This document shows positions 1-2,222 of a stretch of 9,124 nucleotides of DNA, piece after piece. A model generated the notes under the pieces. That model was not told the origin of the DNA. It was given only the letters and a program-made list of their open reading frames with translations, and made no database searches. Numbering within the stretch: position 1 is the first letter of the stretch; each line of letters begins with the position of its first letter. The DNA lies in contig CALMLK010000122.1 of assembly GCA_937868035.1 (NCBI GenBank), forward strand, positions 1 through 9,124, given 5' to 3'. The position numbers and the translations under genes were made by a program. Origin of the DNA: an uncultured Alphaproteobacteria bacterium. Its GTDB lineage: Bacteria > Pseudomonadota > Alphaproteobacteria > Rhizobiales > Aestuariivirgaceae.

Positions 1-221
1 CCCTCAGCCTCCAATGCGGCCAGATAATCGCGGATCTGCTGGGTGGTGGCGGTGGCGGGTGCTGCTCCCGCCCTGGCCAGCGCCTGCACGTAGTCTTCGA
101 GATCCCGGCCATAGGCGAGGAGCGAGTTTGGTGCGGCACCGCGTTCCGCCGCCATCATTTCAAGGAAGCGGCCGACCTGGGGCTGGCGCGCGGGCGGACT
201 AGTCCTGCCGGAGCTTTTCAT
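1..221 (-). CDS. xerD: Tyrosine recombinase XerD, N-terminal part (cut by window edge)
   Basis: This is the first 73 codons of a leftward gene that continues beyond position 1. XerD-type tyrosine recombinases act with XerC at dif to resolve chromosome dimers. The visible part corresponds to the N-terminal SAM-like core-binding domain: a basic, Pro-rich lead-in, then a helix around FLEMMAAERGAAPNSLLAYG (residues 18-37), followed by RDLEDYVQAL and an IRDYLAAL helix, which is the usual XerC/XerD beginning. The catalytic R-H-R-Y residues lie outside, so family membership is inferred from the N-terminus and from the neighbourhood, since xerD commonly lies divergent from aroK in Rhizobiales. The ATG at 221 has no clear Shine-Dalgarno and lies 23 bases inside the preceding small gene, which suggests translational coupling. 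XerC or another phage-integrase-type recombinase cannot be excluded. Confidence 0.8.
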   Translation of the reverse strand, partial: MKSSGRTSPPARQPQVGRFLEMMAAERGAAPNSLLAYGRDLEDYVQALARAGAAPATATTQQIRDYLAALEAE

Positions 222-483: not shown

Positions 484-1086
484 ATGGCAAAACGTTCCAC
501 CAGCAAGGACATTGAATCCGCGAAGACACTTCTGCGCGGACGGCCCATCGTGCTCGTGGGTCTGATGGGGGCGGGCAAGACCAGCATCGGGCGGCGGCTG
601 GCCGACAAGATGGGGCTTCCCTTCGTCGATGCCGATCATGAAATCGAGGCCGCGGCGGGCAAGTCCATCGCCGACATCTTCGCCGAACATGGCGAGGCCT
701 ATTTCCGCGACGGTGAACGCAAGGTGATCGCCCGCCTGATCGAGAACGGTGAGCAGATTCTTGCCACCGGCGGTGGTGCCTACATGAACCCGGAGACGCG
801 GGCCCGCATCCAGGACGGCGCCGTGTGCGTGTGGCGCTAGGCCGATCCCGAGCTGGTGATGAAGCGGGTGATGTAGCGCAACGACCGCCCCCTGTTGCGC
901 ACTGCCGACCCTGAAGCCGTGATGCGCCGCCTCATCGAGGAACGCTATCCCGTCTACGCCCAATCCGACATCACGGTGGAGTGCCGCGATGTGCAACATG
1001 CCCAGATGGTGAATGACGTGCTGCGCGCGCTCGCCCGCAGGGCAGAGGCGGAGCGCACTTCGCCGCAACCTGAAGCCCAATCATGA
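484..1086 (+). pseudogene. aroK: Shikimate kinase AroK, interrupted by two in-frame TAG codons
   Basis: Shikimate kinase phosphorylates shikimate to shikimate 3-phosphate with ATP. The reading frame runs the normal family length (200 codons) to a TGA at 1084-1086 that overlaps the aroB start as ATGA. Visible motifs: Walker A GLMGAGKTS (26-34, Lys32), shikimate-binding DADHE (Asp51) and FRDGE (Arg75), and TGGGA (95-99). Then a TAG falls after VW-R at codon 119 (838-840) and a second at codon 131 (874-876). The same frame resumes with RNDRPLL (132-138, the LID arginine) and the EERYPVY helix, both conserved parts of AroK. No frameshift is needed. If translation stops at the first TAG, the 118-residue product lacks the LID and C-terminal adenine-binding part and should be inactive. 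Because aroK is usually essential and its neighbours are intact, sequence error or stop suppression are real alternatives to gene decay. Confidence 0.85.
838..876 (+). other. Pair of in-frame amber codons inside aroK
   Basis: TAG occurs at 838-840 and again at 874-876, both in the aroK frame with eleven family-like codons (ADPELVMKRVM) between them. The bases 856-867 and 868-879 are a near-repeat, GTGATGAAGCGG and GTGATGTAGCGC, in which the second TAG aligns with AAG (Lys). The first TAG sits where AroK proteins usually have Lys or Arg before an Ala-Asp pair. A single A-to-T change would explain the second codon; the first needs at least one more change, because the residue before it is Arg rather than the usual Leu. 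Confidence 0.9.
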
Positions 1087-2222
1087 CCCATCCTGACCAG
1101 ACACGTGCGGCCGTCCAGACCGTCGCGGTGGCGCTTGGCGACCGTTCCTACAACATCCTCATCGGCGAGGGCCTGCTGGCCCGCGCGGGCGAGCTGGTGA
1201 AGCCGCACCTCAAGCGCCCGCACAGCGTCATCGTGACGGACGAGAATGTGGCGCGCCATCATCTGGCGAGCCTGCAACAGGCGCTGTCCTCCGCGGGTAT
1301 CGCAAGTGATGCCATCGTCCTGCCGGCGGGTGAAAAGAGCAAAAGCTATGCGACGCTCGCCGAGCTCTGCGACAAGCTGCTGGCAGCGGGGGTGGAGCGG
1401 CGCGACTGCATTATCGCCTTCGGCGGCGGCGTAATCGGCGACCTCGCCGGATTTGCGGCGTCGATCCTGCGGCGCGGCGTCAACTTCATCCAGATTCCGA
1501 CGACGCTTCTCTCCCAGGTTGATTCGTCCGTGGGCGGCAAGACGGGCATCAATTCGCCCTATGGCAAAAATCTCATCGGGGCTTTCCACCAGCCACAACT
1601 GGTGATCGCCGACCTTGGCCTGCTGAAAACCCTGCCGCGGCGTGAACTGGCGGCGGGCTATGCCGAAGTGGTGAAGTATGGCCTCCTCGGCGACCGCGCC
1701 TTCTTCGACTGGCTGGACGGCAATGTGCAAGCTCTCCTGGCCGGTGACATGGCCGCAACACGGCAGGCGGTGGCGGTGAGTTGCACCGCGAAGGCGAAGA
1801 TCGTCGCCGAGGATGAAACCGAAACCGGCGTGCGGGCGCTCCTCAACCTCGGCCACACCTTCGGCCATGCGCTTGAATCCGCCACGGGCTATTCGCAGCG
1901 CCTGCTGCACGGCGAGTCGGTTGCCATCGGCATGGTGCAGGCCTTCCGCTTTTCGGAGCGGATGGGACTGTGCGCGCCGCAGACGGCAGGGCGCGTGGCG
2001 GCGCATCTCAAGGCGGCAGGGCTTCCCATCCATACCAGCGCCATTTCCGGAGACCTTCCAGGTCCGCAGGGCCTTCTCGAACTCATGCGCCAGGACAAGA
2101 AGGCGGTGGCTGGCAAACTGACGTTCATCCTGGTGCGCGCCATCGGCGAAGCCTTCATCGCGCGTGATGTTCCCGATGGCGACGTGCTTGCCTTTCTAGA
2201 AGAGGATCGAAACAATCCATGA
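1083..2222 (+). CDS. aroB: 3-dehydroquinate synthase
   Basis: AroB converts the seven-carbon sugar acid DAHP to 3-dehydroquinate, the second step of the cytoplasmic shikimate pathway, using NAD+ and a divalent metal. The 379-residue length is normal for the family. Motifs seen in order: VLPAGEKSK (79-87), FGGGVIGDLAGF (113-124) at the NAD site, IPTTLLSQVDSSVGGKTGIN (138-157), KNLIGAFHQP (162-171), AEVVKYG (194-200), LNLGHTFGHALE (254-265) and LLHGESVAIGM (274-284). Glu195, His258 and His276 match the family's metal ligands. All key residues are present. The ATG overlaps the aroK stop as ATGA and no strong Shine-Dalgarno precedes it, so translation probably depends on ribosomes finishing aroK, which matters given the stops in aroK. 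The gene ends in an ATGA overlap with the following transporter gene. Confidence 0.98.
   Translation: MTHPDQTRAAVQTVAVALGDRSYNILIGEGLLARAGELVKPHLKRPHSVIVTDENVARHHLASLQQALSSAGIASDAIVLPAGEKSKSYATLAELCDKLLAAGVERRDCIIAFGGGVIGDLAGFAASILRRGVNFIQIPTTLLSQVDSSVGGKTGINSPYGKNLIGAFHQPQLVIADLGLLKTLPRRELAAGYAEVVKYGLLGDRAFFDWLDGNVQALLAGDMAATRQAVAVSCTAKAKIVAEDETETGVRALLNLGHTFGHALESATGYSQRLLHGESVAIGMVQAFRFSERMGLCAPQTAGRVAAHLKAAGLPIHTSAISGDLPGPQGLLELMRQDKKAVAGKLTFILVRAIGEAFIARDVPDGDVLAFLEEDRNNP

Follow-up and report, generated by a model that had tools for sequence, protein, structure and literature searches.

The two in-frame TAG codons in the aroK gene of this DNA very probably reflect a local sequence or assembly error, that is, a brief run of wrong consensus bases in a single draft metagenome-assembled genome, and would represent no working feature. 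Error is the most likely explanation because a nearly identical aroK is intact on other contigs and because TAG gave no sign of serving as a sense codon.

The interrupted aroK frame

The window (9,124 nucleotides, the whole of contig 122) belongs to a 2.64-Mb draft genome that consists of 474 contigs and is 79% complete with 2% contamination. Its genes encode, in order, a small membrane protein, AroK, AroB, a CNNM/CorC-type transporter, BolA, a DnaJ-domain protein, CobS and CobT, followed by a methyltransferase-like protein and a double-zinc-ribbon phosphoribosyltransferase-like protein. The gene for the small membrane protein stops at a TAG (199-201, minus strand), where its nearest relative (L003) appears to use another stop. 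The features of the aroK region are as follows.

484 to 1086, plus strand: aroK, shikimate kinase frame interrupted by TAG at two in-frame positions; a 118-residue product as written
835 to 876, plus strand: anomalous block of 14 codons (118 to 131) with two TAG codons and three missense codons at near-invariant sites
838 to 840, plus strand: in-frame TAG, codon 119; lysine or arginine in 147 of the 149 best-listed homologues
874 to 876, plus strand: in-frame TAG, codon 131, directly ahead of the RNDRPLL motif; lysine in 147 of the 149 best-listed homologues
1083 to 2222, plus strand: aroB, 3-dehydroquinate synthase, overlapping the end of aroK; all columns conserved among relatives are matched

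The aroK frame extends from the ATG at 484 to the TGA at 1084-1086, its end overlaps the aroB ATG at 1083, and the family frame is unbroken on either side of both TAG codons. Read with X at the two stops, it yields a 200-residue shikimate kinase that scores 258.1 bits on NF010552 (cut-off, 186) and covers positions 1 to 158 of the 159 in the Pfam SKI model. The 118-residue product that ends at the first stop scores 166.3 bits, below the same cut-off, and lacks the RNDRPLL motif and everything else after residue 118; as written, the frame does not run uninterrupted through the full AroK protein.

The sequence-only reading of this DNA had described both TAG codons, an absence of frame loss, and retention of RNDRPLL and of the C terminus overlapping aroB, all of which were confirmed. 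Its further description of two substitutions, with none elsewhere, in an otherwise intact gene needs correcting: at least five changes fall within the same 39 to 42 bases, and the missense codons 118, 122 and 125 of the block had been overlooked.

Clustered departures in codons 118 to 131

The anomaly in aroK amounts to more than two stops: three missense departures (codons 118, 122 and 125) share the block, which makes it a 14-codon cluster in which five or more bases are changed. The closest protein among the matches listed, P0002, is an intact 200-residue AroK found on three contigs (longest, 2225). It differs from the window aroK at residues 118, 119, 122, 125, 131 and 192, so that five of the six differences lie within 14 of 200 codons (P = 3.3e-4 from 2,000,000 random draws, with the span picked post hoc), while 185 of the remaining 186 residues are identical. 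Changes spread along the gene, as in a decayed pseudogene, were therefore not found.

The sites affected are nearly invariant. In the 149 best-listed homologues (the best rows of two longer lists), Leu118 and Leu125 are present in all 149, and Leu122, Lys131 and Lys or Arg at position 119 are each present in 147, whereas Arg118, Pro122 and Val125 of the window occur in none. Among the 106 columns conserved at ≥90% in these homologues, the window departs at five, four of which are in the block. At the DNA level, 29 relatives encode leucine at codon 118 in every case, lysine (20) or arginine (9) at codon 119, and lysine (28) or arginine (1) at codon 131.

Third positions distinguish the block from its surroundings. 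Compared with G007 and G032, the genomes of the two nearest relatives used for DNA comparison, third-position differences account for 58 of 72 and 58 of 82 differences, respectively, outside the block and for 5 of 11 and 3 of 8 inside it. The remainder of aroK thus resembles sequence shaped by selection on a protein, whereas the block, whose differences lack this third-position bias, does not. The first TAG also forms a CTAG word, which occurs 56 times in the examined contigs of this genome, where 278 occurrences are expected.

A templated origin of the block was considered and rejected, as its first 20 bases have one other match in the genome, which carries three mismatches. Bases 849-859 of the block are also present as an 11-base word in aroB (1190-1200), which was taken as chance.

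Intact aroK in relatives and occurrence of the broken form

No stop interrupts the next closest protein listed either: P0003 (seven members on three contigs; longest, 18245) has the same residues as P0002 at each of the five block sites. Intact copies that appear to be of the same lineage are thus present on other contigs (three each for P0002 and P0003), as expected if the window holds an assembly error. The finding named beforehand as one that would speak for an error was an aroK of this lineage free of interruptions, and P0002 appears to supply it, although it is not the identical allele, since residue 192, outside the block, differs too.

When the 118-residue product was used as the query, it fell in cluster P0122, which has two member sequences and whose one listed contig is that of the window itself (9124 bases). 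The protein lists comprise the best 120 of about 8000 matches, clustered at 90% identity, and could hide further shortened copies. Within the genus, 35 of 37 genomes carry one full-length aroK, which is free of stops in 34 and interrupted in this genome alone. The gene is absent or gives a weak partial match in the other two genomes, which are 66% and 82% complete, and every genome of the genus that is ≥90% complete (29 in all) has it. A separate metagenome AroK relative, P0123 (145 residues, on a contig of 17,459 bases), is 91% identical over 118 residues, leaves the family just past RNDRP and is cut short; judged from the protein only, this is the pattern expected of a one-base frameshift.

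Assembly quality

A comparable fault was found in another core gene of the same assembly, guaB, at the following positions.

L198 (contig C121 of this genome, G000), 112-285: guaB with a mismatching 3' end and an in-frame TAA
L283 (contig C90 of G000), 1-270: intact guaB 3' end, opening the contig

The guaB of C121 is identical to P0152 over residues 1 to 430; all 20 differences fall at residues 431 to 478, and one of them is the TAA. Its 3' part has no close counterpart among the guaB sequences listed (best match, 48 of 61 residues). The guaB end on C90, after about eight mostly mismatching codons, matches P0152 to the last residue with no stop. The simplest reading is that the end of C121 is likely a wrong join in the assembly. 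This assembly can thus carry false stops in core genes, which does not by itself prove the aroK stops false.

Some observations count against error in aroK. The block sits 835 bases inside its contig, unlike the fault in guaB, which is at a contig end, and no similar cluster of departures was found elsewhere in the window among the seven genes with enough relatives. Among the first 60 contigs of the genome examined, 13, all under 3 kb, are withheld or masked and given as N along their whole length (30,328 of 361,940 bases), and naive GC and gene counts are lowered because of them; the readable contigs have a GC content near 0.63.

The literature search found no paper on premature stops and assembly errors in metagenome assemblies and none on Aestuariivirga with a stop codon.

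TAG as a stop or sense codon

Decoding of TAG as a lysine-like amino acid, genome-wide or by a suppressor tRNA, would restore full-length AroK. Both TAG codons do fall at lysine/arginine sites and are one base from AAG, the codon that G032 uses at both sites and G007 at the first. Furthermore, open reading frames (ORFs) ended by TAG in the examined contigs run on in frame for a median of 50 codons (≥60 codons in 19 of 40), compared with 27 for those ended by TGA (42 of 160). However, the same tilt, though weaker, is present in G007 (31 of 89 for TAG versus 110 of 381 for TGA), the read-through beyond TAG-ended ORFs has no homology support, and the ORF set includes shadow frames. The TAG-ended ORFs of these contigs also outrun the TAA-ended ones in frame. 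The longer run-on after TAG than after TGA is at odds with TAG being an ordinary stop.

The remaining evidence opposes such decoding. Release factor RF1 (prfA) is intact (468.2 bits; cut-off, 423.25), and TAG terminates 41 of 246 long ORFs here, compared with 90 of 547 in the relative G007. A check for in-frame TAG codons in other conserved genes, proposed in the sequence-only reading, came back empty: stops were absent from all 86 ABC and all 33 short-chain-dehydrogenase (adh_short) domain matches (0 of 119 together), and no in-frame TAG occurred in ortholog alignments against G007 at identities of ≥65% (0 of 79) or ≥70% (0 of 68), for which 60 contigs were used, 13 of them all N. Stops of any kind were found in 6 of the 79 alignments (eight TGA and one TAA) and in 3 of the 68 (two TGA and one TAA); judged by eye, all except that in guaB lie just ahead of the true start codon or in noncoding shadow frames. 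In the reverse direction, with frames of this genome aligned to G007, 7 of 63 alignments contained a stop (six TGA and one TAG), and the lone TAG lies within what is apparently a shadow ORF. No tRNA with anticodon CTA was present among the 26 genes called around 25 tRNA matches, and no TIGR02367 match indicating PylS was detected, both in an assembly that is 79% complete.

To the extent that these data allow a test, TAG appears to act as an ordinary stop here. Genome-wide recoding was rejected in view of RF1, both domain scans and the alignments of orthologs, and the same evidence, with the neighboring missense codons, opposes the amber decoding that had been offered as one option. Decoding of TAG as lysine-like in any form is thus extremely improbable, as it would also leave the missense changes at codons 118, 122 and 125 unexplained. 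We consider equally remote the narrower case in which UAG is otherwise a stop and is read as lysine at the two aroK sites by an amber suppressor encoded in the unassembled fifth of the genome.

Alternative explanations

The main rival, which we consider unlikely, is a real clustered mutation in one strain, in which a multibase event (e.g., error-prone repair synthesis) destroyed codons 118 to 131 and left a truly broken aroK allele. The strain would then depend on aromatic compounds from outside or on a kinase that the assembly lacks. In its assembled form the allele is consistently broken, and a clustered mutation event would likewise produce a 14-codon block. Only one PF01202 match was found in the genome, and it provided no second full-length shikimate kinase, but this search is weak in a 79% complete assembly from which even chorismate synthase is absent, so that a second kinase or loss of the pathway is possible. 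Fifteen members of the genus have one further weak PF01202 match each (21.9 to 31.3 bits), which were taken as other kinases. Ordinary decay would scatter changes, yet the sequence outside the block matches P0002 almost throughout. In addition, aroB is intact, both matches to PF00275 (EPSP synthase family) are free of stops, the genome lacks a template copy for the start of the block, and aroK is retained by every nearly complete genome of the genus.

A special kind of assembly error, in which the block was copied in from the aroK of another organism as a short chimera, has a precedent in the chimera-like guaB contig end of the same assembly. It is nevertheless highly improbable: the donor would also need to carry the stops, and no listed natural aroK could have donated the block, because its three missense residues occur in none of the 149 homologues.

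A wrong consensus, by comparison, accounts for the clustering, the choice of invariant sites, the lack of a third-position bias, the near-identical copies that are intact and the fault in guaB. Low or low-quality read coverage may have let a short run of wrong bases into the consensus, and the real aroK of the cell would be an ordinary intact shikimate kinase gene that uses the standard code and is coupled to aroB. Three options had been proposed from the sequence; error is now favored, amber decoding is opposed, and loss covered by a second kinase is left with a single PF01202 match in an incomplete assembly.

As an artifact, the interrupted aroK is ordinary, but it carries a warning, as two identical stops at lysine sites in an essential gene mimic recoding. 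The clue against recoding is the missense cluster beside the stops, and scans for recoded stops in draft genomes should weigh both neighboring residues and other in-frame stops. If suppression were true, it would be a surprise to see UAG suppressed in a core biosynthetic gene of a free-living bacterium that otherwise uses the standard code.

Comparison with known systems

The window aroK shares with alphaproteobacterial AroK (NF010552 and PF01202) the frame, P-loop, RNDRPLL motif, length and aroK-aroB overlap, and it differs from the family in the two TAG codons and three missense departures of codons 118 to 131 and in a product that ends at residue 118.

Pyrrolysine decoding at UAG offers a likeness in that a lysine analogue is inserted at TAG, but PylS was not found in this incomplete assembly, and the usual context of pyrrolysine, methylamine methyltransferase, does not apply to aroK. 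With UAG stop codon reassignment, aroK shares an in-frame TAG in a conserved gene, whereas this genome showed no other in-frame TAG in the conserved genes examined, keeps RF1 and yielded no CUA tRNA at 79% completeness. According to the introduction of a screen of >250,000 genomes, all bacterial code changes then known reassign UGA (PMC8629427).

A further resemblance is to the false in-frame stops of draft metagenome assemblies, in which such artifacts are common. Although the aroK block does not lie at a contig end, it shares with such stops a local cluster of changes at invariant sites in a fragmented, 79% complete genome, and the same genome also holds, in guaB, a comparable fault with the intact end elsewhere in the assembly.
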